A DNA stretch of 64,000 nucleotides from Apostichopus japonicus (taxonomy: Eukaryota; Echinodermata; Holothuroidea; Aspidochirotida; Stichopodidae): the NCBI RefSeq assembly GCF_037975245.1, contig NC_092576.1, positions 37,290,611-37,354,610 of the forward strand. Reading direction: 5' to 3'. Below are positions 5,736 through 46,572 of the stretch, one piece after another. Numbering within the stretch: the stretch's first letter is position 1; each line of letters opens with the position of its first letter. A program made the translations under genes and the position numbers. The notes below the pieces were generated by a model. That model did not search any database. It was not told where the DNA came from and was given only the letters and a program-made list of their open reading frames with translations.

Positions 5736-6671
5736 CAAAACATTCCCAACATGCTCAACCCTATATATCTATTATAACCTATACTTTATGGGATTCATGT
5801 AACATTTATTTTTAGCAGTAAGCTTTAACTTTTGCTCCCAAAAGCAATTTCACACTGTGATTTTGCTCAATATACAAGGAATAGTTAATCATGTGTAAAT
5901 TCACTTTGTTAGTTACCCCATGATTTGAAACTCAATGTTACCAAAATTTATCGGTATAAATACGTTATTGTTTCATTGTTTTAAGTACTAGGTGTTTATA
6001 TCACCCACCTGGTGACCTTCTTACAACTCTCCACAGATAATCGAACATGGACATGAAGGAACGTTTGGTAATTTTATTTTATTTCACTCATTTCTGTTAA
6101 TGACGATTGCTTATTTAAATCTTCCAAAAACAACTTTGTAAATGTAAGGTCTTACTCAGCAGGCCGATGCACATGATCATTTAATAAAAATTGCCTCCCG
6201 ATAACGTTTATCATCAATTGTAATGTAAATGTTTACTCTAAAATCCCTGGTAAGAGACACTCAGACGTAGGTATAAGAAACTATGAACTTTGTTTTATGA
6301 CTATAACTACTATCGCCATATTACTAAACTTCATATAATATAGTTTGGTTGATTACTACTCTACTGAATGTTATACTTATATCTCATTTTATTTTATAAA
6401 TGTATTATTGTCCCTAAAATGTAGCAATATGTGAAAGTGTTATTTGTGTAAACATGCAGTTAATGTTCTGAAAAATAGTACTGAGAAGTAACGGGAATTA
6501 AACCCCGTGACAGTGACTTTGCGCCCATGTACAACACAGCAAAAGAAATCGGTGAAAAAATACGTAATACGCTCTCATTGACAGTTACACTAAGCACCAG
6601 TAGAATCACCGTAGTAGAGTGGTGCGGATTTCTGTCTGTGACATTTATTGTTGTTGTTATTGTTGTCATCT
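5736..6671. other. Non-coding AT-rich DNA left of the 9.6 kb unit
   Basis: No gene, RNA or repeat is recognised. It ends in a TTG-rich run (about 6645-6668) right before the TTAA that bounds the next element. Confidence 0.4.
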
Positions 6672-6675
6672 TTAA

Positions 6676-6693
6676 AGGTCAAGCGACACGTAA
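6676..6693 (+). repeat. Left terminal inverted repeat, element 1
   Basis: AGGTCAAGCGACACGTAA, directly after TTAA at 6672-6675. It matches the reverse complement of 16241-16258 at 17 of 18 positions. Confidence 0.75.
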
Positions 6694-7242
6694 ACTTGAC
6701 TTTGCATAATATTAAACTTAACAATTCTTACATTAACAAAAACCCAACACCGCGATTTTTTTCCGTCTCCAAAGGGGTAGAAATCGGTAAAAAGTACTAT
6801 TACGTAATAGATTCAGTGACGTCACGGGGGGGGGGAGCGCAGAAGAGTGCAAACTGTATATGTTCTGCACAGTGCATTGGGTATGGAGAAATCTCAAACT
6901 TCTCGAAAATATTACCTTTTTCAGCAGTCTGTTACAAGAAAGTTAAGATTTGGATTAAGATGAAAAATCACAAATTGATACATAAGACATCAAACAAAAC
7001 ATCCATTGACTTCTTTTTTCATAAATTCCTTGCATTTTCTTCCTATCAAGCAACAAACAACTCCGCAAAAATCGGCTAGATTGACTCGTTCAGGGAAAGC
7101 CGAAAACAAATGACGTCATTTGTTTACCAAGTCGAAAGTGAATGATATCGTCGCATACGATATTGCTACTACATACAGTTTCTATACACGCACTGTAATA
7201 CGCATATATACACAGCACAGCATAGCTTATACATATCGCGAA

Positions 7243-9117
7243 ATGGCTGCCGGTGGCATTGACACACAGTATTTAGATAGCAACGGCGAAGAAGTAAGGG
7301 AAATGGAGGACATGGTGGACGATCGTGGGGAAGTTTTTCCCTATATGTTCGAACCGGAGACCAGCGAAGAGGAAGCGGGATCGGACAGCGATGTCGAAAT
7401 TGATCGTCTTGACGGAATATAACGGTAACGTTACGCCAAGCGTACTATATATACTTTATATAGGATAGTTGTGTCACTAGTTAGGCCTAGAACCGATAAA
7501 TGTTTCCTAACTTTGCTCATACACTTAGCTAGCCAATTTGTTGATGGGGCAGCAAAATTAACATGAATGTGCGGTCGAGTAAAGTTAAGGAAGTTACTAT
7601 TTTCCTTAAAAGTTGTGGCAGCACATGCCCCAGGAACATGTCACACAGACATGTTTCATTTGGTTAGTAGATTGAAGGAGCCAATTGGAAGACTGCACAA
7701 CAAATTCAGAGGTGGCCTATTATTAATTTCCTAGCAGTTGTAGGACTAGTGGCAAATTAGTGAAGTTACCACAAATCAGGGAAAGGGTGGGGGGGGGGGG
7801 GGAGAGAAGGTGGCACCTCACACCAGCTTTTTGTCATTTATGCTTGAGCTAATTTCATAACCAGATTTTCTCAATCTAGGGAATGGATACAGAAGTGGGA
7901 AAGAGTTGGAAACGAGGCAATATCGGCCTGTTTTATTTTCCTTTACAGCATTGTCCCAACAGAGGCAAGACTTCTAAGAAGAGGCTACCCCTTCCTTACT
8001 AGTGATGTTACTTGTAAGGAGCTTCAACAGTAGATTGCCCTTCAGAGGTGCCCCTTTTCTATTTTGACATGTTAGTACAGTATGCCCCAATAATTGAGGT
8101 CGGTATGAAGTCATTGAATTGGCTCTTTATTATTTGAATTGGTTTGTATTGTTTACAGGTGTCATTGTGGCCAATGTGCTGTGATACCTACAGCAAGGGA
8201 GTGTAGATGCTGCAGCGAAATAGATAAGTAAGGACTGTGATGGATGAAGAAGGTGCTGCATGCATCACCTTACACCCAGGTTTTGAAGCTATGTGCCTGA
8301 ACCCATTGTTTCTTCAGACAGCCTACTACATGTACCGTCAACAGTATTGTGGACGTGCACAGGAAAACAGGATCCAAGAGTAAGTATAGAATACATTATT
8401 TTTGTTGTATACCTTTATTCATTGCTCTGACCTGCTGTTGAAAGATGTAACAATACAGAGGGTGTATTCATAGTTTAGTTTTGTTTCGTTGTGAAAGGAA
8501 TAACATTAAGATATAGATTTGATCAAGAAAATTTGTGCACCATGTTCAAAACCTGCTTCTGATTAGGTCATTTTGACCAAAAACTGGTGTAATGCCCTTG
8601 AGGTTAACCCTTATCATGCTCACTGACATAGTAATCATTAACACTGAGCCATGGAACCAAATGCCACAAAAAAATTGTCCACCATGCTTGTGCACGATCC
8701 ATTTACAAATTTTAGTCCCCGAGATGATGACAATGATCAGTTTGTATAAATGGCATAGCTAGGCTTACTTTAGGGGAGGCAGATTTAGGGGCCAAGCAAA
8801 TTCTGGAAATCATATAGAAATTTATTTTAAAATTGACGTCCCCAGATGGCTACCAAGCTTTTGTGTGTCTTCATCTTTTATAGCTGGTTTTCATATGATT
8901 ATTTTACAGGAAATACAGACACACAGCATACAGACAACGTGCACGGATGAGCTAGCAGTTTTTAGGGAAGGAGTTTTGTGTTGTTCTCCTATCCTATGCA
9001 GTAAGGAGGATTAGAGAAGCTTTACCATCTGAACAGTATGAAGGATTTAAATTATCAAGACTGAGAATGTGGACTGTTTATGCCAAGTCATACTATCATT
9101 TCTGCAAAGTTTTATAG
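7243..9117 (+). pseudogene. P2X7 ballast-type zinc-binding protein, spliced pseudogene
   Basis: Three exons fit by splice sites and phase: 7243-7424, 8159-8379, 8910-9117. The start ATG at 7243 opens an acidic N-terminus containing PYMFEPE, a signature of stand-alone P2X7-ballast-like proteins. Exon 2 gives CHCGQC and CRCCSEID (clustered cysteines, presumably zinc ligands), then HPGFEAMC and LQTAYYMYRQQY. Exon 3 gives YRHTAYRQ and ends at TAG 9115-9117. The family is known from the cytoplasmic ballast of vertebrate P2X7 and from single-domain invertebrate proteins; the role of the stand-alone form is not established. Breaks: in-frame TAA at 7420-7422 just before the first donor, a frameshift near 8227-8236 after SEID, and TAG at 8953-8955 where relatives often have Trp. 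No ion-channel part is present. The gene lies entirely inside element 1. Confidence 0.7.
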
Positions 9118-10254
9118 AAACAGGGTTCAGTGCTGTCTGTTTTGTTGCTGAATGGTGAACATTTTGGAATTCCAGCTTACATTTTTCTGGTTCATGGTAT
9201 TAACTACAATCTTGGATGAAATTTTACATTTTCAAGTTTGGGAAGTACATAACAGTAATAAATAATAAAAACTCAAGTTAATTTTTTGTATGTATTCTCT
9301 CTTGTAAGCAAAGCTGTCACTTCTAGTAGCCTGCCAACAAAATCTGGATGATTGAAATCTCAAATATACTAGGTTAAAATAGAAGAATAGTTTGAATTAA
9401 GTACCCTAAACCACTATGTCAATGGGATCTGGAGAGCTTAGGCTTTCATTTTAATAAAATTGTAATGAGAATCAATCTGCAATTGTTCATTAATCCATGG
9501 AATATCAGGGTATTTCTATAAACCTGGGGTCCAATAGTGTGACGTGGATCCAAAATTTCAATGTCCTTCAATTAAGATGAAATTTTACTTTTTGATAGAG
9601 TTATTATGTGGGTTTTAAAAAATAACAGTGAAGAAGTAAAAAAAAAAGTGCACCTATAGGTCAACAATAGTAATGCAAACCAATATGACGAAAAAAACCA
9701 ACATAACAGGGACACCAAAATCCGAACCTGTCAACAGGGGGAAAGTGACATGCCTATAGGTTACACTGCCTCTGTTATCTGTTTTGCACTAGGTTTTAGA
9801 TGACTTTCAACAATAAAAAAGCTTTAAGGAGAAATGAGTTTCATTCAACAGAAAATTGCAAAAAAAAAAATGACAACATGCTATTTTCCGAAAGCAGAAA
9901 GTGCTTTTTTTAAAACCATTTTTATTACAGCACAATAAACTCAACAGAGTGGAATGAACAGTCCCTAATATAACACTATCAATCATACCTACATATTAAA
10001 ACCACAAAGGACCACCAACACACCCAAGGTTTTCTGTAGTGCAAGTTCTAATACCGCGAGTTGTATGGAAGTAGGAAAAAACTTAAGCATAACGGGGACA
10101 CCAAAATTTAGTGTCCCCTGTAATGAACAACAGTTAATGATTAACAGACGAACAAATAATTTTATCAAATCTGAAATATTTTAAAAGTCAATTATTCATG
10201 CACAGGAATACATCCAGTGTCCAATAGTTCAGAAAACTGTATGACTAGCATAGT

Positions 10255-10416
10255 AAACAATCTGACAAGGTGTCTCACATTTATTCAAATCTCAAACATT
10301 TCACAAGAAAAAAAAGCTAGAAAAGGTAAATCCAAAAACAATCTGACAAGGTGCCTCACATTTATTCAAATCTCAAACCATTTCACAAGAATAAAACTAG
10401 AAAAGGTGAATCCAAT
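10255..10416. repeat. 81-bp tandem duplication
   Basis: Positions 10255-10335 and 10336-10416 are near-identical direct copies, beginning AAACAATCTGACAAGGTG, with a few substitutions and small indels. It lies just beyond the 3' end of the - strand gene, so in its probable 3' untranslated region. Confidence 0.85.
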
Positions 10417-10534
10417 ATTTAACAAGGTGAAGCTTTGACAAGAAAGAAGAAATGTTCAAAATGAAGGCCTTCAAAGTTACTTGATTGAACAATTGTTATC
10501 AAGTGAAACCTGATCCAGTTCATTGTGGCAAAAT

Positions 10535-10886
10535 TCATACACATGCCCTTTGCTCCAGAGACACTGATGGTGGAGACAAAACGCAAATGTCCGACAATGG
10601 ATGAAGGTGACAAAGTTCATTGGTAGACTGGAAGGACCCACTCTTTCGCCGTTGCAAGAATTTCAGTCCAACTTGGCTGTTAGCGATGGCTTGAACCTGG
10701 AATAAGAAGATAAGACGAGCATATTACTTTCAGGAATGATCTCCACATTATGAAGCATAATTTAGCTGCCAAAATGGAGAATTTTGTGTGCATCAGGCAA
10801 ATATTGACTCAACCATACTCACCAAGTAGACAAAGTTCTTCTTGCCAGTAGCAAAATTGATAGCTATGTAGGACCCCACCTGGAGC
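10535..10886 (-). CDS. Last two exons of the - strand gene in element 1
   Basis: Two exons on the - strand fit exactly: 10886-10823 (acceptor TTTACAG, donor GTGAGT, ends at a codon boundary) and 10696-10535 (acceptor TTATTCCAG, stop TGA at 10537-10535). The joined reading frame has no stop for 75 codons and includes VGSYIAINFATGKKNF, then VGLKFLQRRKSGSF, and ends with PPSVSLEQRACV. The alternation of basic and hydrophobic residues looks like a small beta-rich (Tudor/SH3-like) tail, seen in some transposon-derived proteins; this is a resemblance from memory, not a proven domain. It is probably the C-terminus of the same gene as the THAP exon at 15675-15900, but the missing middle means this is inference. 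No breaks are seen here, unlike in the THAP exon. Confidence 0.5.
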
Positions 10887-10999
10887 CTGTAAAGGAAAAT
10901 TACTTTGAGTGTGATTATCTTAGAATATATTTTCGGTAACAAAGTGACCTAGATTTGTACGTTTATCAACTCTGTGCTGGACAAGGTTGAGTAGAGTAT

Positions 11000-13300
11000 G
11001 GAGGTTTTACCTCCATGAGTAGAGGCACATGTTGTGGATGGGCAAGGACTGCTTTCTTGATAAGTCAACTGACAAGTTTTAAGATTAATGTGCTAAGACA
11101 CAGATGGAGCTTCAATATTCTCATAAACAAACCTAATCTATGACTCCACGAAAAGATTTCACGAAAGGTTTATCCATGATATGAGGCAAACAAGTTATTA
11201 GTGAAAAATAGGTTACAGAATACAGTATATAAAATATATATAAAATATGGATCTCCATTCCACTAAGTTTTGTCTTTTTCACCTAGAGTAGGCCTATTAC
11301 TTTAGACCCTAACACAGTGACAGTGCTACCGTAGGCTAGTTGTTTCAAACAAAGTTCCTATCGATAGTACATACAGTGGTAATGGTAATGCCATTGATAC
11401 TCTCAATTTGGGGCCTAGACTATATGTCCATCTGTTTTGGATAATAATTGGTTAAAAATTGCCATAGCGTTCCAATCACATTCCGCTCTTACAAATTAAA
11501 AATCGGGCTGATGTAGTATAGCAGTTACAATTTATTTTATTGGTTTTAACGCCGTTTCTGACATATTTTGTGACCCACGTTAAAACTTTGGTGACTGGGT
11601 TGTAGTTTCGCGAAACTTTCAAACGTTATTTTTAAGAGCGTATTTGTTGATATTGTACGCATGTTTTGACATTATCGTACATATCTCGAATAGAAAATAA
11701 ATTTATCAGCATTTTTGCACAACAAAAAGAAACTTTGTCCTCTTTTTCTACATTTTGCCGTTTCGCGAAATTACCGTAGGCTACCTGTACATCTTATATT
11801 CGAATGTAGCCTAAGCTTAGGCCTAGCCTAACGTTAGTTTAAACTGTTAGTGTTACCATAACGGAGTACACCAATGTAAAATGGTGTCCCCTTGACAGCA
11901 ATTGGCCAATTAATGAATCAACCATTTAAAAAAGTCTCAAAAATCAAATTTATCGATAGATTAACTTTTTATTTAGGTCGTAATTTTAAAATGAAACGTT
12001 ACTTTAATATTTGCACACTCACTTTTCTGGAACTCAACGGGGTTTGCGGCTTCGACGTAACGAAAATACCATCGTAACGCTGGGGTAGATAGGGGACACA
12101 AATTTTCTTCGGTGCATTGATCGATGTAGCGCTGGAGTTATATATGATTGTATATGCCTGCAGACGACGTCTAGGACTTATGAATGACGTCATTCATTCA
12201 TAAAACTATGGGATGTGTTTTTTCACAAATGACGTAGCCTTGAAATTTACCAACGTTACGAGGTCTGAGGGACACGAAACTTTTACGAATTTTCGGGTCG
12301 TTGAAGACAACATTTTTGAGCTAGCTTGAACATCCAAAATAGGCCTATGGAGAAGGGATAAGTTGGTTGTTAATGTCTGATCGTACATCGCGATGCTTGT
12401 ACATGCACACAGGTTCACACAGGCAATCATATATCAATTTACCAACGTTACAGGGTGGACACGAAAATGTTACGTTGGGCATGCACATTTCAATACTTCG
12501 TCATAAACGAGTGGGGACGAAAAAAATACTGAAACTTTGTCAACTTCAACTCTTATTCATGTATTAACTTGTAGTAAATCTGCAAATGAACTTGAGACAA
12601 AATGAACAGTGAGAAATGTTACCAAAGTTAACATGTTTAAATGTCACAGTTGGTACTAAAAATTGTGGGGGACACAAACGGAAACTTGCACTTAAAGAAA
12701 AAAAACGACAAGAGATTTAAACTTTTTTTATATTTAATTATACTCCCTATACAGTAAACTATAAAATGCAACTAGACATCAGGATATTGAAGTGGTAATT
12801 TGCAAGTGATTGGATAGTATTTGTGCATAGTGTGTGGAAACCCTATTGGACCCCAGGTTTATAGAAATACCCATCAAGGTTACTTGATCATAAATGAGAT
12901 AAAAAAAATCATATTTTATCCCATGCGGGGAACAAACAGCAAATTTCTGTCAGATCTTTTTGAGAAAAACCAAAAATTGGCAACATGTTTGAAACACCAA
13001 AGTTGCATACAAATAGTGAGTCAGCATGAAATTTACATTTATGAAGTCTAAGCTCTCTAGAGAGGAATACTTGTTATTGGAACTTTTTCTTAAATATAAT
13101 GTTATCATTACTAATAGTTAGTTACAATGGAAACCAGATGTAAGTAAAACTTGAATGTAAAACTTTAGCAACTTCCCTAAAGGCTGGTAGCGACCTGTTA
13201 ATTAACACTGCTCTGCAGCTGTGCCATACACCATGTGAACAGACGATTCACAGAGTCGATTGCTCCCCACTACAATGAAACAAAATTAGAACTTGGGAGG
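11000..13300. other. Element 1 interior without recognised exons
   Basis: Between the C-terminal exons and the linker exons no convincing coding segment was found. Part of it (about 11550-12500) is richer in CpG than the surroundings and carries GTTACG and CGCGAAA words. A catalytic transposase core would be expected hereabouts if the element is Kolobok-like, but none was recognised, perhaps because of decay or because it is absent. Confidence 0.35.
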
Positions 13301-13317
13301 CCATCAACTACAGTACT

Positions 13318-13642
13318 TCAGCAAAGCTTTTGAAATCTGCTTCGGTGTTGTTTTATGGCATCCTCATTGTTCGGATGAACATAGGAGCTTGCAAGGGGTG
13401 GGGGCTCTTTTCTGACAGGAACAGGACACTCCTCTCCCAGAGTTCCACTTCTGCAGAAGTTGTTGCAAGCAGTCAAGAAGTTCCCATACATAATCTGTAG
13501 AATAGTAAAGATATGAAGAATAATATAATAATAGTTCATAAAAACATACCATTTAGATAGAGGCATTCCAATCACTCCACTTCGGTCAATAGGCATGGCA
13601 CAGTTGTCGGTCAAGTCTTTGGATGCCAAACTAAGGCGACAG
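13318..13642 (-). pseudogene. Possible middle exons of the THAP gene
   Basis: Two coding-like pieces lie on the - strand. The first, 13642-13550, follows an acceptor (TACTCAG) and ends before GTATGT; it reads SLASKDLTDNCAMPIDRSG and so on. The second, 13494-13318, follows ATTCTACAG and reads MYGNFLTACNNFC, later PVRKEPPPLASSYVHP, ending LC and TGA. Joining the two at these sites puts the second out of phase (a stop results), so either the splice choice is wrong or the gene is broken here. No domain is recognised. Confidence 0.3.
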
Positions 13643-14200
13643 CTGAGTACACCTCAATTCGTGTGGATACATGGGTCAGGTTTTACCTGACAACTTGTGC
13701 CTGAAACAATTCCAATATATTTTTTACTGATTACAACAAAAACCCTACACCTGTTTGTGCACCTAATATTATGGATTATGTAATCTTCAGCAGGATGTGT
13801 GGTCATTGTCTCAGTAGCTTAACCACTGTTTATGTAGTAAAGTAAACATGTGGACAGAGTAACATCCTGTCCCATCCCCTTGTAATCCATGGTAAAAGAG
13901 TGTATAAGATGCAACTTTCACCATTTGTATTCAGTAGCAGATATCCAGCCAAGTTAAGATATAATATACTCTGTAAAATCCAACTACTTGTTTGTGCCTT
14001 TATTTCTTGTTCACATACAGCTGTGACAACTCTACCAGATACAGTATGTATATGCTAATTGAAGTAAAGACTGATGGCCTCACCACACATTCCAGACTGC
14101 CCCACAGTGTTGGTGTCAAAATTAATAATGATCCTCTTTCCAGAAAGTTATGGCACCAATTGATTTTCCAGACTAATCTACTATCAATCTTGAAAATTAC

Positions 14201-14438
14201 CTTGAAGGGTCATCTTTGTCATGTTCAGATGTGTTAACTGATGGAGTGTAGTCCGGACTACCTGGCGGTTTTTCGGTGTATCCTGATGTGGATGCCACAG
14301 CAGCAGAGGGACCATCATCGCCACTGTGAGATGGCCCTGGTTGCTTTGATGGTGTTCTTGTCTCTGTTGGTCCAGTCAGCAACTTCAATGGTGGTAGGGG
14401 AACCAGTGAACACTGGACTTCTACATGTGTTACATTCA
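14201..14438 (-). CDS. Linker exon of the THAP gene
   Basis: A - strand exon with acceptor AATTTTCAG and donor CAAG|GTAATT. It encodes a low-complexity, Pro/Ser/Thr-rich, acidic-ended stretch (for example GPSHSGDDGPSAAVASTSG and SPDYTPSVNTSEHDKDD). Such disordered linkers commonly follow the THAP domain in THAP proteins. Its start phase does not match the donor of the THAP exon at 15675, so an exon between them or a frameshift is needed. Its complement at 14241-14537 is open on the + strand, but that is a shadow. Confidence 0.45.
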
Positions 14439-15674
14439 CTGAAAATTAGAATAAACGCTTATTATACCACACACATACAGTATAGGCTGCTCTTGGACAG
14501 GGGTCAGCTGCCTAGATGGTTCACTTATCTTTTCTGAAGGAGAGCATATCCTCCTGCTTTATGTGGCTGCAAAAATATGGGCCACTCACACCATGAGCAT
14601 TGCAAATGACTTCAGCTTGGTTTCATATAGTATAACTACAATGTAATCTCCCTTCTCTCAGTAACTATAGATGTAGCCTTTATATTTTCCTGTGAAGCCA
14701 TCAGGTATAGCCTCCTCAACCACTCTCGTCAGGCAGGCGGATATGATGGATAAAATACAATGTATATTATCCCCTAGTCAGCCTGCCCGATGTGCAGTTT
14801 TGATTGCTATTTTGCTTTCAACGAGTACTGTTTCTAAAATTTTGGCCCCTGTAATCACTTCTGCTATAGAATACTCTATAGATGTATGAAAGTTTTCCAT
14901 TCTTGCTTGTATTACCCTATCTTACACTTCTCTACCACATTTTCTCCCCCAACCCCCCTGCCTCCTTTTTGTCTGGTAGCTTCCCCCCCCCATATACATG
15001 CCTCAATGTTTTACTGGTGGAGATTCCTTGTATCCCGTTCAAAACTGACTACTTAAATCTTTAATGCCTGTCACCACCCTCCCCTCCCCCATTTCCCAAC
15101 TGTTTTTCGGTAATATCAAGCACATGTTTATAAGATCATGCTACCTTTAGATGGAGATGTACATTCTGCAGAATCCTGCCTTTATTTTCACTGCAGTTGG
15201 TTGGGGAACAGCTTCTAGATTAATCTAAGTATTGAAAATTAGGAAAGAAAATAACAAGGAAGTTATGAAAGTTCATTTAAGAAAGCAGTTTGATATGTTT
15301 GAAAGTACCTGTCACAAGCGTTTTCTCTTGCAACAAAAATTGCAGCCCTACCAACAAATATGGCAAAATATAAGGATGTCATTTACTGTGAAACATATGA
15401 GCTATGACTCTTGAGTATATAGATAGGTGGGAGCACATTATAATATTGGGTAAAATGACATGTAAACATCTTATGCTTGTTATTCTGGATTTTTTCATGA
15501 TGTACCACAAATGAAAGTTAATATAGCCCTAGCCTACGCCTAACTTCATCGTCGCCGTACCTAATTTTGGGCCTAACTAACTGAACGAAATTATAAGAAT
15601 CAGGCTACTGTAAGATAGTAATAATACCAAGTTAGTCATTGTTGTAGTAGGCCTAGGCCAGAAAATACACTTAC

Positions 15675-15900
15675 TCTTTTCCGATCCAGCTTCGCAACTA
15701 CTGGTCTACTTGTTTCTATATCTCCTCGAGATTTGAAGATACTTTCTCCAAATAGAGAAGGAACGGCATTGTCTTGTAGACGGCGAGCTGTTGGTGTTCC
15801 AAGTCCAAGTTGCGCGGATAGGCGATAGGAATCGAAACGTTAACTGGTGAAGGGCGCACTGCACACATAAGATTCGCTCGAAGGTCCAAGCCAATCTTTA
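15675..15900 (-). pseudogene. THAP zinc-finger exon with a premature stop
   Basis: On the - strand, acceptor TATAAG (15906-15901) and donor GTAAGT at 15674 bracket an exon that reads KDWLGPSSESYVCSAPFTS, then a TAA stop (15842-15840), then RFDSYRLSAQLGLG and RRLQDNAVPSLF. This is the second half of a THAP domain: the conserved Trp, the C-x2-H pair (here C-S-A-P, so the expected His is Pro) and the AVPxxF box that closes the fold. THAP domains bind DNA through a C2CH zinc site and occur in P-element, Kolobok and host proteins. The N-terminal C-x2-4-C half must be in an upstream exon (15901-16258), but none is recognisable. Stop plus lost His mean this copy is dead. It lies 358 bp from the right end of element 1, reading inward. 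Confidence 0.7.
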
Positions 15901-16240
15901 CTTATAGGCAGCTAGGCTGGCTGAGTGCACTGGTACTAAGCTATCGCTGTATACAGTGTTGACGAACACGAAACTTTCTTGTACTGTTGTGCACCCATTC
16001 TCATCTGATATTTTGTTTACTGTTCGTGACGTTTTGTTTACGGCTTTGATCTCGGTTAGCATATTAGGCATACTTAGTTTTGGTAACATTGGCGGTTCCC
16101 CCGTGACGTCATTATCTTTCGGAATTAGCTTGGTTATTAACTTAATTAAAACAGCAAAGAAACAATTGTGGAACTCCAAATTTGGAATATAGGGTTTTGA
16201 TATGTAGCTTTTCAATTTGTGTAAGTTTGAAGGAAATCTG

Positions 16241-16258
16241 TTACGTGTCACTTGACCT
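16241..16258 (-). repeat. Right terminal inverted repeat, element 1
   Basis: Reverse complement AGGTCAAGTGACACGTAA, followed outward by TTAA at 16259-16262. It pairs with 6676-6693. Confidence 0.75.
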
Positions 16259-16459
16259 TTAATGAGGGTAGTCCTGCTCAGTGCAGAAGCACTGCTTTCC
16301 AGAGGAACCCTCAGTACAAAATAAATATACAATATAATGCAGTAGAAAAACGGTCAACATCAAAAAGCACAAAAAGAACGGCAAAAAAAAGATAGACAGA
16401 AATATGTCAGACATCTAAACCAAATCTATAAGTTTCCATATTGCGTTTAAAAATATTAA

Positions 16460-16484
16460 AGGCACACTCTCAGCTAGGAAATTG
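16460..16484 (+). repeat. Left terminal inverted repeat, element 2
   Basis: Starts AGGCACACTCTCAGCTAGG after TTAA; matches the reverse complement of 26136-26160 at 24 of 25 positions. Confidence 0.65.
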
Positions 16485-17130
16485 CTAATCTTGTCTCAAC
16501 GTATTCCCCGATTTAAAATAAAAACAATGCTGACTTCTTCTCACAGCGGCAACATATTCGTTTCTTCGATATGGCATTCTCATCCTTAGCTATGAACAGC
16601 ATACGGATTTGGGTACTGTTATCGCAAAGTTATCAGGTTTCCGATATTCTAATCCGCCTCTCACAGTGTAGCGTAACCTATGAGCATACCGTGTAATTGT
16701 ACTGTGTGCTATACGAGCAACTTTCTACTTGTTTTGTACGCAATTTTTCGGCTGGCTTTATGGAACAGTGCATATTGTACTGCTGGGCAAACGCTATAGC
16801 AGCTCATAGGTGCAGGGAGTTGTTATGGCAGGAGTCATATGGGCCGTATGATCTCGTGCTGCCGATTTTTGTTGGAGAAATTGCTGAAGAAATAAAATGC
16901 GAATAGTTTCGTCGTGTAATTCTCTATAAACATGTGACTGAATATGTGCTGCTTATGTACTTCTATTTGACGAAACGACTTGCTTCTGGCCTAACGTTCT
17001 TCAACACTTGTGTTCAAAATAAAATAAAACAGTGAGCAAACAGCTTATCCACTAGAGAGCCTGTGTAGAAAAAACACGCACATAATACAGACAGGTTAAT
17101 GAGCATGGTGAACACAAAGAGATAGATGTA
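16485..17130. other. Element 2 left flank, no gene seen
   Basis: No exon recognised. A small inverted repeat, GTTTCGTC near 16907 and GACGAAAC near 16968, could form a hairpin. A + strand frame at 16697-16906 has no recognisable feature. Confidence 0.3.
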
Positions 17131-26227: not shown

Positions 26228-29110
26228 AGGACCTTTAACCATTCCCAGATCTAATAGGAGCAAGTGAAACATTATTAGAGCAGCTGTATCTAGTTCTGTA
26301 CGAATGGCCATCTCTCAGTAAAATAGTATTTTCAGTAAGGTAATTTGGAGCCAGGCCGTGGACAAATCTATACATTAGAATATTCCTGAAATGTAATGCA
26401 CGTTGACGGACATTTAGCCAACTCAATTCAGCTAAAATATATGTAACATGCAAATGCTGAAGCCCACATCCCAGGACTAATCTAGCTGCACAATTTTGAA
26501 ATCTTTTAACCCGGTCAACCAATTTGTTCGTCACAGTAGTCCAAACGGCAGAACAATTATCGATATGGGATACAATTAGAGCGTTTTAAAGAGCATTGCG
26601 TGTATGCTGGTCAACACACGAATTAGGGTTTTTAGAATGCCCAGTTTCTGTGATAGTTTTGGAGTAATTTTGTCAATATTTTTTTCCTATTTGAGAAACG
26701 GGTCGAACCACTTCCAAGGTATTTGAATACATACTGTTACGTTGGAATGCGAGAGGTCTCGATAATTAATTTTAACGAGACACAAGCCTGGGTTCGTTTC
26801 CGTAAGGAACACAGACAAATTGACGAGTCTAGAGATTTTAAATGAAACGTAAACTATATTGAACAATGGATTTCGAACCAACAACAACAAGTGGTAATTA
26901 CAAATATATAGAAAATTACTCATAAACTTAACAAGATAGGATACACTTTAAAACACGCTGGTCTCTTCCAACGGCGATATCCCTCAGCGGCCACGACCTT
27001 GATGACGACGATTCTCGGTCCGTTGTACCGCGAAATTCACTGGTCCTCGACGAAGTTTCTCGCGATCCCAGAAACAGCACTCACCTTCTTTCCGGCGATG
27101 CTCCAAAATAGAAGACGGCCTTCCAGCCACAATCGAGTGAAGCACAAGTCGAACTTCTCGCCGACTAAATATTACCAGAGTCAGTCCAAAATCAGCTTTA
27201 TAGCCACCAACTCCTGGCGTAACGAACTTCCTCAACGGAGACAGAAATTCTTCACCTTCTCCGAAATAAAGACTGGCACACTGTACTTTCACAGCAAAGT
27301 CCTCTTCAAACTTCTGAATGGAAGTGTAGAATCAATCTTGTTATCGATATCTCAATCCCTCAGAAACTACTGGTAGTTAAGCACTGACGATATATAATGG
27401 AATGGTATAATATGTGTCGTCGCTTGTATTCGTTCAGAAACTGAGAAACTCTCCGATCTGGGCGGGTTTATATACGATTCGCCAGGTCAAGAATCCTCCA
27501 GATCTTTCTCGATACACCTGAGTAACAACGCGACCCGGTTTCTACGTTTCGCGGAAGTCCTTTGCACATCTCGCGAACATTCCAGAGAATCCACGAAGAT
27601 GTGCACAGCTTACACGCGATCTCACGTAAACCGATGTTCACCCGAGACCAGCGCGTCATCATAAGGAATATACCAGAACAATCGTGTATTATAACATTCT
27701 GACGCGGTCACCCGATCTAATTTCTCAAATAATGATTGTCACGTAGGCCATTTCAAAGACTTCCTATATAATAACATTAGGTTCCTCACTAGCAGTAACT
27801 AGCGTTAGGCTACAATGGGCCCTCGTAACAATACAGAGCTTCAAGAATATCATTATCAAGCTTTACATTGAGGGGATTAACATTTTTTTTATAAGTTGAG
27901 AAGAGCCACATGTAATACCCTTGGTTTTAGAAGCATTAAGTGTCAGCTTATTAGTGTTCATCCAATCAGAAACAGCCTCCAGGTCGAAATGTATGACCGG
28001 TAAAATATCTATCATCGTCATAAAGAAAAACCTTACAATTCGAAACTACAGTAGGAAGGTTATTAATAAAATGATAAATACGAGTTTACCTAGTCCCTGG
28101 GGTACACCAATTGTAACAGGTCCTGCATCATATTTAACCCCACCAATAATAGTATTTTTTTTTCTCTATTTGACAAATAATTAGAGAACCAGGCCAGCTC
28201 ATTATCCCGTATCCCATAACAAGATAATTTATGCAGAAGCATCTCATGGTTGACTGCAGAAAGGCCTTTCTTAGGTCCAAAAACACAGCACCAGTGATCT
28301 GACCCTTGTCCATAATATCAAGAATGTAGTCAGTAACGCCAATGATAGCAGCAAGCGTAGACTGTTGTTGTCTGAATCCAGATTGTGCCGAACTTAGAAG
28401 CCCATTGTTTTAAAGATGACCATAAACTTGGGCATGAATAGCTTTCACAAGGTTTTTAGTAATAACAGGTAAAACTGAGATGGGCCTATAGTTACCACAA
28501 TCTGTTCTCAGCCCATCTTTAAAAATAGGGGAAACAGCTCTCTGTTTCCACTCAGCAGGAATGGATGCTCTACAAATAGTAAGATTAAGAATAAAGGTAA
28601 ATCGTTTGGAAATTTGATAGCTTCCTGTTATCAAAAGTGTAGCACTTATGCAATGAATACCAGTAGATTTACCAATTTGAAGATTTGCAAGTTGTTTCTT
28701 TGACAAAATCCTCACTAATTTCAATAAATTTTAAAAACTCGTCAACATACTTTAACTTCCCAAATAACCGGGCAAATTCATTACCAATGTCTGTAAAAAA
28801 AACAATGAAAACATTAGCCATCCCACTAAGAGTCTCAACTTCTTTGTCATTGAGTAAAATCTTGTTAACAGTAGCTTTATCTTTTGTTGGAAGAATATAT
28901 TTAAATGATCTTCCACATCTGCTTGCTATTACCCTTGTTTTGTTCAAAATTACCAGTATAGTATGACTTTTTGGCTTGTTTAATAAGATTATTAGTTTAA
29001 TTTTTGAGATGATGAAAAAAAGTCTCAGTCACTAGACGTTCCATATTTTTGAACAACACGTTTATATTGGTCATGATCCCTAATTATAGATATGATTTTA
29101 TCATTGTGAG
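26228..29110 (-). mobile_element. Decayed LINE, - strand, split by a solo LTR
   Basis: Read on the - strand, reverse transcriptase motifs appear in order. Around 28.6-28.4 kb: WKQRAVSPIFKDG and NYRPISVLPV. Around 28.3-28.15 kb: a piece with FSAVNHEMLLHKL. About 27.95-27.86 kb: the NKLTLNASKTKG box. Then, after the LTR insertion, the FKYLG box near 26720. Finally RFQNCAARLVLGCG, the LSWLNVRQRALHF block and a C-terminal stop at 26235. These are the RT and C-terminal parts of a CR1/Jockey-type LINE; no endonuclease is seen, so it is 5'-truncated or too decayed. Stops and frameshifts are numerous. Removing 26735-27830 makes the two halves collinear. Confidence 0.75.
26735..27830. mobile_element. 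Solo LTR, 1096 bp, with 4-bp target duplication
   Basis: The segment starts TGTTACG and ends CGTAACA, the standard TG...CA LTR ends, and is flanked by ATAC on both sides (26731-26734 and 27831-27834). It interrupts a LINE reverse transcriptase at the FKYLG box. No gag or pol is inside, and no second LTR was seen, so it is a solo LTR left by recombination. TGTTACG ends are common in Gypsy elements, so that class is likely. A TATATAA motif lies near 27390 and AATAAA near 27264. The short open frames in it (26984-27376) are not genes. Confidence 0.8.
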
Positions 29111-31012: not shown

Positions 31013-33514
31013 ATTTGTCACCTGTTTGTAACAATGCTAGCTGTGTTGGTGACATGTCTTGCTTTACTCTAGAGATCAAACAATATGCTAACCAAGTACA
31101 ACATTGCAAGCTCGGTCGTTTTTGGCTAAGATCTATTTCATTTGAGAGGGACTGGTGATACAAATTGTACATACAATCCTCATGACCACACGGTTCCAAT
31201 ATGGATGTGATTGGACTGAATGTTGATTATTAAGATCGTTTTATATTCGTGCACAGGCGTAATCTTTTATACCAGAAACGTTTTTTCAAAGCGAATCAGC
31301 TAAGACAACAAACACTTAATTTACACGAATAAAATTGAGCAACAAATAGTCTGTCTAATCTATTGCCTTTCCAAGGGACTTACGATACACCTTTGACGTA
31401 ACAAGTCGTTTGGTTTTCGTTCCTATAGGCTCTTGAGTCAGTTTTTATATGAAGCACATGATTATAATAACCTGTTTGATACCAAGTTTAAAATGTTTTT
31501 TTTTATTTTTTTTTTTACAAGAGAATCAGGGAACAAATTCCTACTTGGGATTAACTCAGCAGCATCTGTCTATAGCATGTATATGACATGATTAATTCAA
31601 ATCTTATACACCCATCAAAGGATATGACCAACCAGAGGGCATCGACGTTTGTATTCTTACTGTGCATTCGGGAGGTGGACAGGGAGATTTAGAGATTGTC
31701 CTATTGGATTTAAATCATTTTACAAACTATACTATATATGCATAACAATTTCTCAGAAGATAATCACATATTAAACTCAAGATAGTCCTTAACTTTCGAC
31801 GTAACATAACCATGAATATGAACAATAAAGCAACGAGAATGTTGGCAGAATATTCCAGCAAGAAAGATCACGAGGTATTAGTAGGAGACATGCGCACTTG
31901 CCACATCATTACATCAGCAGATCTGTTACCATATTACGGTGATGACATCACTTGGTAGTTTCGCTTCTGTTGAACCTTGTGATGTTTAATATATTCTACT
32001 GATCTAATAAAATGAGTGTTTGTTTTACCATCTTGAGTAATATGTTTTATTTAAATCAATGGCTATTTTCCTTTTTTGTTGGACTTTGTTGTTTATTTTA
32101 CTGATAAAGCACCTGTCTGTGCTTTACATTGGTGTTAATGTCATACACCAAATATAACCATTTACTCTGAGATGGTATAAAGCGTGTACTTATTCATATC
32201 AACGAGCCGCGCTTGTGTTGCAGCAATCCATGTATATATGCCTGCAGTTAAATTGCGTGTATATCAAGCCAGTCGTATGCAAGGATTTATTTCTTTCATT
32301 GAATATTTCGATCTCACCCTGATTAAGTTGAATATCACAGTACCATAAAAAACGATTAGGTATGTGGGAAGACATAAAGAGGCAGCAGATTGCTCATTGA
32401 TATACTTCGTATTATGTCAGCACTGAAACGTTATATACTACACGATTCAAACATATTGCAATCTCATCGCAAACACACTTCACGAATAATTGATAGTTGT
32501 AATATAAGAGGGCAACGTTTGTATATGCAACAACTCTGGTCTGGTTTACAAACGTGTTTTTGCTTGTTGACCTCATTTTCTTCTTCGTTAATTGGCGACA
32601 GTGATGGATGCTGTGGCCATGGGAACGGGTGTATGGCAGGAACAAACTTTACATAGTGGTGAAAGAAATTGATGTTCCTAATATTTCCACTGCTTCCAAA
32701 TTTGCTTGCGACCTTCTCTCATGTTTCAGTGACTCTACAAAAGGTGGCGACCCCTCTTCGATGCATATGCAATGCATATATCGGTTGGTTGATGTATAAG
32801 GTACTTTATATCTGTACAAGGAGTAGACCCTATTCTAGGTTTCAGGATTTAGTTAAAGTGTACTTGCTTCCCTTCTAATATGATTGTCATACATATTTGT
32901 CATCGTTAACAGGCAGTTCACATTGCACAAGGTGTGCGAAGGCTATGGGGCGTGTTAACGCCGCTGTTATATGTAGATGCTAACAAGCACATCGTGCGAG
33001 CGAGAATCTTTTAATAACTCCGAGGTGACTAGAAAAACGGAAATATGGATCGGATCAGACGACTGGCAAGAAATATTTCCCGTCAGCCTACCAGATCGAA
33101 CCAGTCCACTTCTGTAAGAGCTGAGCCATCCACCCAACAAACACTGACTTTGGAAGGTCCGTATAATCTCGCTCTGATGCAATCATACTATCAAAGACAA
33201 ATTAAAAACGAATGACGTTACTGATATGTAATCGTATTCTAAATCAATAGCATAAACTTGTATGCAACAGTGGTCTTAATTCCTTAATATTTTATTGAAG
33301 TCTTTCAAGTGTTGCAAATTCCCTAATTTCCGTAAGAAATGTATATATTCTTTAATAATTACATACGTGGCAAAGAGGGTGGGGGCGGTTTTTAATGGTC
33401 TTTCAACTGAAAAGCATATCCCACTTTAATATGAAGTATTGTTGCATTGATCGAAGTTAATACCGTACGTCACTATTGATTTCATTGTTTACTTTTCAAT
33501 TTCATTTTATTCAG
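31013..33514. other. Upstream of the NACHT exon; no exon recognised
   Basis: The NACHT exon begins at a splice acceptor with two bases of a split codon, so at least one upstream exon must exist, but none was identified with confidence. NLRs usually carry an adaptor domain (death-fold or Ig) N-terminal to NACHT; a short exon could be hidden here or lie beyond the window. Confidence 0.35.
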
Positions 33515-35037
33515 AAAAAAAAGAAATCTTTCTCACAGAGCTAAAGTCTACGTACAAGGAACGATTTGACGCAGTTCAACCGATCCCTTATATCAAAGAT
33601 AGACTCTACTGTGTAGATAAAGTATTTGTTGAGGGCAGCATTGAGGGTTTCATCGAGAAGCGAACCCCCTTCTCGCCCGAAGGATCATGGAAACGTTTGG
33701 CGTCATATAATCATATTTTCACTGATCCGCGTATTAAATCAGTACGTCGAATTATAGTGGGTGAACCAGGGTACGGTAAATCAACCCTTACCCTTCAGTT
33801 AGCCTATGACTGGTGTAACGGTGTTAAGGAATCCCCTTTCTCTGATGCAGATGTGTTAATTCTACTACGACTGAGACAGCTGGGTAATGTGAAGTCCATT
33901 TACAGGGCGATCAAACTGTTTCTACTTCCTAACGAGCCCCGTGTGAAACAATCTGACATTAGAGCTATTCTGGAAGGCTGCCATAGAGTTAAAGTTCTCC
34001 TGGATGGCTATGACGAGTATCCTGAAAGAGATCAAACCACAGGAAGTGACGTAGATCAGATCGTCAGATTAGAGAAGTTTCGAAAATTTGAAGTTACCTT
34101 GACGACCAGGTCTCTACCAAAACACTTTGACAAGTCAGAAACCAAACTAGTCAAGTTAAAAGGTTTTGATGAAACTGCGCGTGATCAGTACATTCGCAAA
34201 GCCATCGCTGGAGACAAAAATGAAAAGTCTATTGATAAAATTAAACAAGGTTTGAAAGGAAATCCAATTCTTGACGATCTCTGCCAAGTTCCTCTATTCT
34301 TCGTTACGTTCGCTCACATGACTGATGAAAGAAGAGACTTTCAGAAATTTAAGTCTGTTACGGAGTTTTTCATCTACATGATGAAATGTTTCCACAGTCA
34401 CACCAGAAACAAGGCAGCGGAACGTAACGTTATGACCTATGAAGTAGAGTTCGAGTCTAAACATGGTGAACTTGATAAAATAGCATTTGAAGGTCTCAAT
34501 AGTGAGTATCAACAGATTGTGTGGGGAAAAGATGCGTTCTGTAAACGAGTTGGTCTAGCGTTTTATGATCACTATATCCGTGTTGGTATTTTAGTAGAGG
34601 AAAAGGTCGTTGATATTCCCGATGGAGAAACTCGTGGTGATAGCATTAATACCAAGATTGAAGTAAGCTTCTACCATAAACTATTCTGTGAGTGGTTTGC
34701 ATCATTTAGGGTCGCGGATATCGCTGCTAATGTGAAGCGTTCAGCCGAATTAGAAAAAACTCTGGGTAAGATGGATCCATTTGACCTCCAGTATGTCTTT
34801 CGATTCGCATGTGGACTAAGCCGCACAGCTGCTCGTAACATTATAGAATATTTGAAGAAGAGAAAAGATTGTGATAAGTTTGCAATCCTCTGCATCTTGG
34901 AACAAAATGGAGACATTGAGGAGATCCGGAAGACTATTACAGAGCTCTGTGCTGACGATGTTGCTATCAGTTACGATGACAACAACTTACTACAAAGGTC
35001 TACCGTACAGCTGTTACAGATAGCATCAAGTCATGAC
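33515..35037 (+). CDS. NLR-type receptor, NACHT exon
   Basis: One uninterrupted 1.5 kb exon (acceptor TTTATTCAG, donor GAC|GTACGT, phase 2 in, phase 0 out), about 507 codons. In order: an N-terminal lead with PYIKDRLYCVDKVFVEG, Walker A GEPGYGKSTL (about residues 83-92), sensor-like FILLRL-type segment (LILLRLRQLG), Walker B/Mg site VLLDGYDEYPE, the TTRS sensor 1 box, GNPILDDLCQVPLFF (winged-helix region), then helical NACHT-associated sequence ending LLQIASSHD. NACHT NTPases drive oligomerisation of cytosolic immune receptors. Similar exons are expanded in sea cucumbers and other echinoderms (from memory). The frame continues 19 more codons past the donor; I prefer the donor because the matching exon at 46935-47093 ends at the same point with GTAAGT. 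No stops; probably functional. Confidence 0.85.
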
Positions 35038-36389
35038 GTACGTATTATCGAGGATACTCATTCCTTAGTATTTTTTGATATGTTATTGTCTTGTTAAATA
35101 CTTGACGAACCTCCTTATGTACATCAGTTCCAATCATGTGAAACATATTACTACAACCCCACTCTGGTAAATAAGACCAACTAACCATTTCCCGTCATGA
35201 ATAATACCGAAGCACGTGATTTATTATAAGTATAAACACATTTTAATCATGTTTTTTAATTTGTTATGTAGATTGACCAAAATTAAAAATAAATACAGTT
35301 TTTGTCTTTTTTGACATATAACAGTATAGTGTACGGTTCATGCATGCTGATGCAATCAGCTTGCTGTTTCACTACGCAGTAATTTAGGACTGAATAACAT
35401 TTTAACCCGTCGCGATAAACTCATTTATAATCCATTTGCCTATATTAAGATACCTATGAAAGGTTGCATCTTTCTACTCAGTAATGTGTTGCCTGCTGTC
35501 GCACTAAATGTAGAATAAACTTTGTTTTTCATATTGTATCTTACTTTGTTTCTACCACTTATGTTACGCATAGCTTGTACTCCCCAGCATGATTTTTCCC
35601 TTGTTGACTTACTAAATGTATAAGAATCTAAACTTAAAATTCCATACCTCGTGAGATGACTCAGAGAACCATCTCTAGCGTGTAATTTATTTGGTTAGTC
35701 CTTCGTGTTACCTACCTTGTTTTAGTCAATATTTTACTCAAAACGTGAATTCGGACAGGAAACGCTACTACTCATTGCTCAGTAGACTATTTACTGCCTA
35801 TTAGAAACACCTGGTTATATTTAAATTAACACTACTACAATAATGTAACAGGTGTTGGTATTTCAGTCATTCAGCTTGCCGCATCATACCAAGCGAATCA
35901 ACAATTACAACATAGGCCTAACGGTTCTTTGATTGCGAGTTTTTATATTGACATACACATTTATGTCATGTCTTCGCATATTTATTCATCAAAGCTGCTT
36001 TAGGAATCAGTCTAATAAAACAATATTACTTTCAAGGTAAGTTTAATTTTTGCTAGTGCGAATTGTGTACCGGAAATGTGAATGGTTAGGCCTAGGTCTA
36101 GGCTTAACAGGTTTTTTTTTATATATTTTTTTTCGACATTATGTCGGACCTTATCACTGGACTTAAAACATAGCTGAAGGCTTATTTAAATAACTTGTGT
36201 TAAAGAATATTTTTTTTTAGAATAATTATTAGTTCGACACTAAACCATACGTATAAATGTTACATATCGGTAATGGTCCAGCATTCCGATAGCCGAATTA
36301 GCCTGGTAGTGATAATGACTTTGGTCCTGCGGTCATGTTGAGAGTGGTCACAGTACATGGATTAGGGAAAATGTCACTCACTTTCAGCA
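35038..36389. other. Intron sequence, no feature recognised
   Basis: Non-coding AT-rich DNA after the NACHT exon donor, up to the Gypsy relic. A few GGCCTA words occur near 35910 and 36090. Confidence 0.4.
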
Positions 36390-39564: not shown

Positions 39565-42500
39565 TCATTTGTAGTGCTCTTGAAAGAGATGCGTTTTAAG
39601 GTGTGACTTGAAGGAGGTGAAGTTCGTGATCATCCGAATTCCGGGAGGCAGCTCGTTCCAAAGATCAGGTGCGGCGACCGAGAATGCTGTAGGGCCATAG
39701 TGCTTCTTGTTATTGGTGTTGCGCGGAACGAGAGTGAACGGCTTAGAGCGAAGGGCGCGTTTGGGTACCCGAGGTGTGATCAGCTCAGACAGGTAAGACG
39801 GTGCCATTCCGTGTATGCATTTAAATGCAGTAATTAAAATTTTGAATGTTATGCGTTGGTGTATAGGTAGCCAATGTAGATCATAGAGGATAGGAGTGAT
39901 ATGTTCGTGACGTCGTGAACGAGTGATCATGCGAGCGGCTGCGTTTTGGATAGTCTGTAGAGGATGAAGTGCAGTTTTAGAAAGACCGTTCAGAAGAGCA
40001 TTACAATAGTCAAGACGGGATGTAATAAAAGCATGAACTAAGCGTTCTGTGAGGGTACGGTTTAAAAGGCGACGAATTCGACCAATCTTCCATAATCCGA
40101 ATGAAGCCGATTTGCATATTTGATTGATGTTCTCGTCCATGAGGCCAGATTGATCGAAATATACTCCTAAGTTGCGAACTAGTGGTACCGATGAAACTTC
40201 GGAAGATCCTACACGAAGCGATTCTAGTTTATTAGAGGCTTTAAATTTAGAAGTGAAATGAATAACCTCAGTCTTGCTGTCGTTTAGTACCAGTAGATTC
40301 TCTCTCATCCAGACTCTTATCTCATCGATACATGCTTCGATTCTAGATTGAGCGTCGCTCTTGCGTTTGAAAGCGATGTATAGCTGGGTGTCGTCTGCAA
40401 ATAACATGGGTTCCAATCCGTGACGAATGATGATCTCCTCGAGTGGCGCCGTGTAGAGGATGAAGAGTATTGGTCCCAGCGTTGTTCCTTGCGGGACGCC
40501 ACAAATGGGTGTGGTCTCGTCTGATTTGTTGGACGCAACTGCAACGTACTGCTTCCTGTCTTTTAGGTACGAACTGAACCAGTCCAAGACGGTACCAGTG
40601 AAACCAAAGGTGAACTCAAGACGATGTAGTAGGATATTGTGATCAATGGTTTCGAAAGCGGCACTCAAGTCCAAAAGTAGCAATAACACGTCCAGTTTCT
40701 TATCTAGGGCCAGCATTATGTCGTTATGGACACGTATTAGTGCGGTCTCGGTACTGTGGTTCACCCTATATGCTGACTGAAATTTCGGCAAAAGTCCATG
40801 TAGAGCGAGGTGCGCGTCGATTTGCTTCTTCACAGCCTGTTCTATGAGTTTTGCTATGTATGGAATGTTTGCAACTGGACGATAGTTCTTCAGCACGTTC
40901 TCATCCATATTTGCCTTCTTTAGCAGAGGGCGAATAACTGCGAGTTTGAGACTTCTTGGGAAGATTCCACTCATGAGAGAAGAGTTGATGATCCTAGTCA
41001 ATATCGACACTGTGACCTCCTTGCAGTTTTTCACAAGTGTGGTTGGTAAGGGGTCGAGTCTGCAAGATTTTGATGTTGAAGATCGGATTAGTTTCTCCAC
41101 AAACTCGTCAGTAACTGGAGTGAATTCTGTTAGGTGATGAGGTGGATGGCCAGGTTTATGTGGTGCTACAGGAACAGGTAGATGACTTCTGAACTCGCGC
41201 ACTCGACTGTCGAAGAATTCGGAAAATGCGTTAGCTACTTTGCTCATTGGAATATTAGATGGCATTACAGCGGTTACAGCTTTTTGGCCGCCAATCAAAT
41301 CGTCAACGACGTTGAAAAGCTGTTTGGAAGACGCTGTCTCAATCCTACCGCGATGGAAGGCAGTCTTGGCCGTGTCGATGTTCCGATGATACACGTCCGA
41401 AGCGGTTCGGTAAATCTGCAAGTCGATTGACATTTGAGACTTTCGCCATCGTTGTTCCAGCCGGCGGACATTCTTCCGCTCACCAGTGAGTGCGTCCGTC
41501 CACCATCGAGCACGTGGTTTGTCAATAACTGTCTTCTTCTGGATAGGGGCAAGTTCATCCAAAGCCTCGGATGCAGCATCAAAGTATGCACATGCCAATG
41601 CGTCGGGATCGGGATTAGGCGGGACTGGGGCATCGCCTTGCTGGGACTTGTTGAAAGCTTCCTCCAGTTTCTTCGCCAGAACTTCAGTGTCAATTCCCGA
41701 GAGACGGCGGCGTTCAATATCCACACGGGTGTTGGGCGGACGGCGAACGTTTAGGCCGAAATGAATGCAGTGGTGGTCAGACATCATCCTAGGTCCCACA
41801 ATCCAATTAGACACGATTGTATCCGACTCGCGCGTGATGATCAGGTCTAATGTATGACCGCTTTTGTGCGTGGCTCCAGAGACCAATTGGCGTAAGCACA
41901 ATCGTGACAGTAAATCAGCGAATTTCCGATGGTCTGGGTCGTTTGGGTCATCACAGTGAAAGTTAAAATCACCAGTAATCAGAAGGTGACCAGGACTGTC
42001 GAGAATATTCTCCATTAATGTAGAGAAGTCCGGGAGAAAATGCGAAATCGACGAGGATTTATTACCGACTGAAGGTGGCGGCCGGTACACTAACACAGTG
42101 CGTAGGAGCTCAGAAGAGGTGCGAATGTCAACAATGCCGTGTTCGAACGACTTGAACTTTGTCGAAGGATGCCGTTTCAATGTTAGATTTTTACGTGTAA
42201 TAAAGGCGACACCGCCTCCTCTCCGTTGAGCTCTCGGGAAGTGGGTAACGTCGTAACCAGACAAACTCAAGCGGAGGTCTCCAAGCGTCGGATCGTTTTG
42301 GTTTTTGAGCCATGTTTCAGTGAGCAGAAAAATATCCGTTCCATTTTCTAAAATTGAGCCTATCAAGGCACCGGTTTTCTCTCGGATCGATCTCGCGTTC
42401 CACAGAGAACATTGAAGTTTTAACTTGGTCACAAAAGCATCCTCACGTGGGATTTGACGAATGACGCTCAGCTGATTTCTATTCAAATTAACATCCGAAC

Positions 42501-42822: not shown

Positions 42823-43010
42823 AAATTATAGAAACATTAAACGTCCATTTAGCCGAAATACTGGCTAAAATCTCGAAAAACAGTGCACAATATAAAAGTT
42901 CATGAACTACAATAGCTCTGTGCTTAAACTCAGCGATGAAACAATCAAGCAGCTGAGTAAACACCGAGAAAATGCGAGAGCGACTTAAAGTTGGCAGCCG
43001 TCAACACAGC

Positions 43011-45303: not shown

Positions 45304-45641
45304 GTATGGCTATGTGTGTACAAGGTATGGCTAACACTAGAGTATGTGAACATAAAATTTATACTGGTAACAGTACATAATGGGTAAGGTAACAAACACT
45401 TGTTATGCCACAATTATATTAAACTACTTTTCTGTGTTGTGACGATCATACATTTTTTATAAGACATTTAACATAGATGTGTTTATGTTCATCAATAACA
45501 TACTGGAATGCATGTCTGTTAGAAATTATGAGATGAGTATTGTGACGTCATTAGTGATTGTAATAATAAATGCAATTATTAAACAGGGCTTGTGAAATGG
45601 TAGAATGGAAATAATATTAAAAAGTGATATTCCACCACCAC

Positions 45642-45910
<269 letters not shown>

Positions 45911-46572
45911 CAAAGCTCTGGTTAGGTTATTAAATTCACTTTTACTGTTTATTTCATGTTATGTCGTATTCTAGTTTTTTGGTCGTGTCGTGCCTGTCAT
46001 CTTGATCTCCAATCCGGCCAATGGAAGAAGGTTGGTTACACTTTTGTTTTGTGTTGATTGAGTTTCCTGATCATGAATGTTTGCGTGTTTATTCATGGAG
46101 TGGGAATGGGGTCTGTGAACGAGGGTGATAGAAATAAGGAGCCTCCTTTATTTCCCCGTAAACTATTGTGAATAACCGACTGTTTTTCCGGTAATGTCTA
46201 CAAAGAACAATTACAACTTTTCCCCGATGGCTACCATGGACAGTTAAGTACGATTTAATATCAAACGTTTATAATTGCACTAATTTATGCATCTTGAACA
46301 AGACTGGTTGTCATGGCTATATACGGCATGGTGTTGTTTTTACATAACGGACGTCAAGAGTTGGGTCATAAAACAAGTTCTCCATGTACTTTTTAGTGCC
46401 CACACAGGTTAAAACCATCTTGCCTCATCACACTGTACAGGAATCTTCATATATATTTGTTATCATTGTAAGGAACAGTAAAGTGGGGCTTCGTCATGTA
46501 TGCTATTTTAATGAATACTATTATTATAATATTACTATTACTATATAATTACTATTATATATTTATCATAAT

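Follow-up and report, generated by a model that had tools for sequence, protein, structure and literature searches.

The locus examined here raises the question of whether a TTAA-bounded stretch with a P2X7-ballast-type gene on one strand and a THAP gene on the other is a transposon with two working genes, or the remains of one. The window denotes the whole 64,000-nt stretch of DNA that was analysed. The answer that we favour, with a probability of about 0.92, is that the element is a recently amplified, non-autonomous Kol0-type Kolobok DNA transposon, which was presumably mobilised in trans and carries the relics of KolX and of a THAP-DDE transposase. The ends, the TTAA flanks, the many copies, the broken genes and the existence of relatives with the same layout and with transposase core exons were all observed directly.

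The element extends from 6676 to 16258, with TTAA on either flank (6672-6675 and 16259-16262), a target-site duplication seen in the window sequence and in genomic copies. A repeat search of the window revealed 18-bp terminal inverted repeats: the left end, AGGTCAAGCGACACGTAA (6676-6693, + strand, starting with AG), is identical to the inverted right end (16241-16258, - strand, where the element ends in CT) at 17 of 18 positions, with one mismatch. The same search revealed two inner inverted blocks of 14 bp each, TGACGTCACGGGGG at 6817-6830 (+ strand) and its inverted counterpart at 16098-16111 (- strand), which start 142 and 148 bp inside the element ends and are 14/14 identical; by itself, this inner pair is weak (E 0.034). 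All of these structures had been reported in the initial annotation and were borne out.

The genome searched comprises 671.6 Mb in 35 contigs, the window lying on contig C16. A 21-base pattern made up of TTAA and the end, with up to two mismatches allowed, was found at 89 + 98 places genome-wide and the reversed control at 2 + 0; given this difference of 187 to 2, the inverted ends are not a product of chance. With regard to the left border, 40 of 136 candidate matches were scored, 39 of them besides the window copy. Among these 39, 29 start at query position 72 or 73 (corresponding to 6671/6672) and 35 at 69-73, the four outliers starting at 38, 64, 66 and 105. On the right, where 40 of 645 candidates were scored (again 39 besides the window copy), 29 copies stop at query position 623 or 624 (16262/16263), 38 stop within 619-629 and a single outlier stops at 650. 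The expectation that other copies would share these ends was thereby confirmed. TTAA was present on both flanks in 23 of the 25 copies examined, the exceptions being L025, with TCAA on the left, and L036, with GAAG on the right.

For the survey of copies, 26 further copies were fetched, two of which were in halves and were dropped, leaving 24 copies and that of the window, i.e. 25, for the gene survey. The typical length among these 25 copies is approximately 6.2 kb. Pairing of the ends drew on the first 100 listed of the 187 end-pattern places; 74 of the 100 could be paired, resulting in 37 elements shorter than 20 kb. Within this set, 21 of the 31 elements with the two end types of the window copy measure 5.5-6.7 kb, and six carry a variant end, one of which is 11.3 kb long (C4:22171422-22182687). 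The mean pairwise divergence over 17 copies is 2.3%. Since the distance from the majority sequence is 0.6-1.5% in 16 of these 17 copies and 4.2% in the remaining one, L022, the set represents a recent burst together with one older copy.

The window copy is longer than usual because another repeat, with a length of 3365 bp, is nested in it at 9508-12872. The insertion was delimited by comparison with sister copies and by repeat and frame searches; it has 33-bp inverted ends beginning with GGGTATTTC and is flanked by an ATCA target duplication (9504-9507 and 12873-12876). The insertion site is uninterrupted in the four sister copies aligned, one of which, L022, holds a different insertion nearby. 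What had been taken for a single 9.6-kb element is accordingly a 6.2-kb element plus a separate insertion that is missing from sister copies. The nested repeat contains no frame longer than 87 aa and no recognisable protein, and a comparison of ten of its short frames with Pfam yielded just two matches, both sub-threshold. Insertions were also observed in L019, L022, L028, L030 and L031; inspection by eye of their frames of at least 90 aa did not reveal a core of this Kolobok family, and the frames of the L030 insertion resemble those of an LTR retrotransposon. A further insertion, of roughly 5 kb, is split between L031 and L032. A 154-aa frame located elsewhere in the window, at 26912-27376, recurs nearly identically in a 1.1-kb insertion inside copy L019, and as this insertion has inverted ends (TGTTACG...CGTAACA), the frame is part of a mobile repeat.

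On the + strand, the element carries four pieces of a KolX/P2X7-ballast gene. The putative exon 1 (7243-7419) is an open stretch, MAAGGIDT...RLDGI, followed by a stop; it was assigned by position only and has no Pfam match. The exon-2 part (8160-8228; CHCGQC...CRCC), the exon-3 part (8237-8379) and the last exon (8910-9073; KYRHTAYRQ...YEGFK), which has an in-frame TAG at 8953-8955, were identified with the Pfam profile and by comparison of copies. Joined from 8160 to 9073 with the breaks written as X, the pieces score 25.0 bits against PF20478 (P2RX7_C; cut-off 23.5); with only the first part of the last exon included, the score falls below the cut-off, to 18.8 bits. A search of solved structures with the ballast pieces gave no matches. 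The gene is broken in the copies surveyed: not one of the 24 in which both exon 2 and exon 3 were found has them in a common frame, and the last exon has a stop within its first 16 codons in 25/25 copies. In the four KolX exons and the transposase tail exon described below, 117 changes alter an amino acid and 31 are silent, with 108.8 altering changes expected (p = 0.14), so that the changes look neutral and fit an absence of constraint. The + strand gene is a KolX/P2X7-ballast relic and not a working gene.

The - strand carries three pieces. The one at 15675-15900, whose borders are approximate, is probably a relic of a THAP domain of which the C-terminal half remains: in a profile search it covers positions 46-87 of the 87-position profile with 15.2 bits, which is under the Pfam cut-off of 23.9, and it is 43% identical over 49 columns to the intact THAP exon of a related locus, L054 (E 1.6e-5, for one 10-kb locus). 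A stop interrupts this stretch in 23 of the 25 copies, the exceptions being L036, which lacks one, and L015, in which the frame changes instead. A Pro/Ser-rich piece at 14197-14445, recognised by position and make-up only and having no Pfam match, is a putative remnant of the exon that links THAP to the catalytic core. The third piece (13321-13494; IMYGNF...HRSRFQKLC) has no Pfam match either and is what remains of a transposase's last exon, matching the C-terminus of the L051 transposase (32% over 44 columns, E 8e-4) and L054 (50% over 24 columns, E 1e-6, for one 10-kb locus). No catalytic exon was recognised in the window element. The L054 core exon has 81 matches in the genome, and not one of them falls within the 37 paired-end elements, although a very divergent core would escape this search. 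The three pieces are a transposase remnant (half a THAP domain, a linker-like piece and a C-terminal piece). The convergent pairing of ballast and THAP sequences in the initial annotation thus holds, including its orientation, whereas neither gene is intact and the THAP gene is no gene of its own. Full-length copies encoding both proteins and a DDE transposase, which it had proposed to look for, were not found: both genes are relics in the 25 copies read, and the 37 paired elements contain no match to the L054 core exon.

Related loci elsewhere in the genome have both genes in the same convergent orientation, together with transposase core exons. At L051 (contig C5), an uninterrupted 550-aa transposase frame, assigned by Pfam to the Mutator-like type (33.2 bits, cut-off 26.5), faces a KolX frame of 169 aa that is likewise uninterrupted. 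A search of the 8 kb of this locus for inverted ends flanked by TTAA found none, and for L054 no definite pair of such ends emerged. L052 (C9) is 99.8% identical to L051 across the whole 8 kb, and the two loci are thus not independent. At L054 (C17), THAP, linker-like, core and tail exons face a KolX exon. Its THAP exon scores 64.9 bits against Pfam and its KolX exon 42.3 bits against P2RX7_C, and a piece of this locus matches the last KolX exon of the window element with 46% identity over 54 columns (E 4e-12, for one 10-kb locus). The L054 core exon gave no transposase match in Pfam, only sub-threshold zinc-knuckle matches; it matches the L051 transposase directly (28% over 141 columns, E 2.5e-16). 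Kolobok transposases are marked by a C/DxxH signature and by a zinc finger between the second D and E; a DVWH motif was noticed by eye in both L051 and L054. We infer that L051 and L054 are Kolobok elements, a name that was given to them by no tool. Another locus, L053 (C12), where KolX and THAP matches face each other 9 kb apart, was set aside: the L051 transposase query found nothing there, and its THAP exon is followed by reading frames that look different by eye, but a weak match (E 3.4e-4) to the L054 core exon lies 1.4 kb past its end.

The same layout recurs across the genome. Pairs were counted among all scored matches, including 150 to KolX and 145 to THAP. KolX and transposase matches lie within 12 kb of each other in 39 cases, compared with 0.43 expected under uniform placement, an expectation that ignores clustering and duplicated segments and hence overstates the contrast with the observed pairs. 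Of these 39 pairs, 37 are convergent, one is on the same strand and one is divergent. THAP and transposase matches form 27 pairs (0.42 expected); in 24 of these, both are on one strand and THAP is the upstream member. KolX and THAP form four pairs (0.78 expected), all convergent, two of which come from L053. An element with the exact ends of the window copy and a core was not found.

With regard to the ballast domain itself, a search of the genome with P2RX7_C gave 471 candidates, of which 150 were scored; all of these exceed the cut-off, and the top 16 contain no interruption. These matches were obtained exon by exon, and their number hence differs from that of the genes. The 37 paired-end elements contain none of the 90 best among the 150 scored matches, and the KolX relics of the window's own family are thus too decayed to be listed among them. 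The last 60 matches form a set of their own: they score 28.9-31.3 bits, many of them equally, correspond to the last ballast exon and contain one TGA each. None of them has a transposase match closer than 12 kb, and they are perhaps another high-copy family with a dead KolX exon.

Membership of the Kolobok superfamily, which the initial annotation had derived from THAP and TTAA, is supported by the TTAA duplication (both flanks in 23/25 copies) and the 5'-RR...YY-3' form of the termini (AG...CT); the KolX relic points to the Kol0 group. Members of the superfamily encode a DDD/E transposase; in contrast, the window family lacks it and retains only the THAP-half, linker-like and C-terminal relics, and it is thus a non-autonomous Kolobok derivative rather than an autonomous member. 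According to the passages of Kojima and Bao 2022 on Kol0 (PMC9587614), elements of this group, including Kolobok-1_XT, encode a transposase and an adjoining KolX with a ballast fold, have TTAA targets and RR/YY ends, and occur in vertebrates, annelids, cnidarians and sponges, among other hosts; THAP and the relative orientation of KolX are not mentioned in these passages. The window family shares the target site, the ends and KolX with this group and differs from it in being non-autonomous with both genes reduced to relics; its likeness to Kol0 is one in which KolX is present as a broken relic only and there is no core to be placed in a transposase tree. The presence of THAP within Kolobok transposases has been described for Xenopus in the relevant part of PMC6004289, where the domain is joined to a DDE core, whereas the window family has half a THAP domain and is coreless. 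KolobokP, which has long terminal direct repeats of approximately 450 or 660 bp, was rejected, as no ungapped direct repeat in 6500-16500 is longer than 43 nt.

The P2X7 ballast or ZCD domain (PF20478), as presented in the sections of Rump et al. 2020 on the domain and its occurrence across animals (PMC7016195), shares the Cys-rich motif and the YRHxAYRQ region with the window relic; there it is fused to the channel in P2X7, while in the window it is part of a transposon relic. The window family is unnamed in the titles and abstract openings of the papers retrieved by full-text searches on Kolobok with KolX, THAP, echinoderms or sea cucumber, a comparison that leaves Repbase and Dfam outside. 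The element probably represents a new family of a known kind. The pairing of genes, which had been put forward as perhaps undescribed, is real and has already been described: the Kol0 passages of PMC9587614 cover KolX with the transposase as well as the origin of P2X7 from a P2X4-like gene that became fused to KolX.

Three other explanations were weighed against these observations. The recognisable coding pieces on both strands, with borders that look splice-like by eye, could be taken to mean that the element is autonomous and encodes two functional proteins. This is refuted for the 25 copies read, in which exons 2 and 3 never share a frame (0/24), the last KolX exon always has a stop (25/25) and the THAP stretch nearly always does (23/25); no core exon was found, the changes look neutral, and an autonomous element is accordingly exceedingly improbable. 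The TTAA target site would equally suit a piggyBac-type element. However, the AG...CT ends are of the type by which PMC9587614, in the relevant passage, distinguishes Kolobok from piggyBac, and the minus-strand relics match a THAP-bearing transposase; piggyBac was rejected on its ends, and we regard it as just as improbable as autonomy.

It could also be supposed that a transposon captured two genes of the host, one encoding a ballast protein and the other a THAP protein, given that animal proteins consisting of the ballast domain alone exist and that the gene neighbourhood is common across animals, as stated in part of PMC7016195. Both pieces, however, match the corresponding genes at L054 in the same layout, and the convergent arrangement recurs genome-wide, which makes capture very unlikely, if marginally less so than the other two.

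The non-autonomous Kolobok transposon would have arisen as follows. Its ancestor would have carried two converging genes on opposite strands, one for KolX, a zinc protein with the ballast fold, and one for a THAP-DDE transposase. The lineage would then have lost the catalytic exons of the transposase and half of the THAP domain, while KolX gathered stops and frame breaks and the ends of the element stayed. As the ends were kept despite the lost core, the element was presumably moved by a transposase from another element, which would have cut and pasted it into TTAA sites; both the mobilisation in trans and the identity of this helper are suppositions. The 3365-bp insertion entered the window copy later. 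KolX may itself have had a role in transposition.

In this genome, ballast-type zinc proteins thus lie beside THAP-bearing transposases in a conserved face-to-face arrangement, and a many-copy TTAA element contains what is left of such genes after their decay. The pairing agrees with the origin of the P2X7 C-terminal domain published in PMC9587614, in the passages concerned, and the proposal of a transposon route is hence not new. It fits poorly with a statement in Rump et al. (PMC7016195, in the part concerned), a paper in which the stem 'transpos' appears 0 times. The genome offers many intact KolX versions for comparison. Ballast-like matches number at least 150, the top 16 being free of interruptions, and KolX faces the transposase in 37 of the 39 close pairs. 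Tentatively, the genome might on this basis serve as a natural test bed for the published route from KolX to P2X7, with KolX as a co-selected transposition partner and with relic-bearing non-autonomous families spreading ballast exons as a standing supply for domestication; we consider this wider proposal possible, although rather doubtful.

The remainder of the window contains several other features. A 548-aa open frame at 33451-35097 has a NACHT domain (44.8 bits) and resembles NLR-type innate immune receptors. On the - strand, a frame of 1086 aa (39565-42825) runs without interruption and contains an endonuclease and a reverse transcriptase domain, which makes it a possibly intact non-LTR retrotransposon frame, and a 126-aa frame (63179-63559) resembles, by eye, a reverse transcriptase fragment. 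A frame at 45526-45921, also on the - strand, includes a run of approximately 90 aspartates, which presumably originated from a GAT-type microsatellite.
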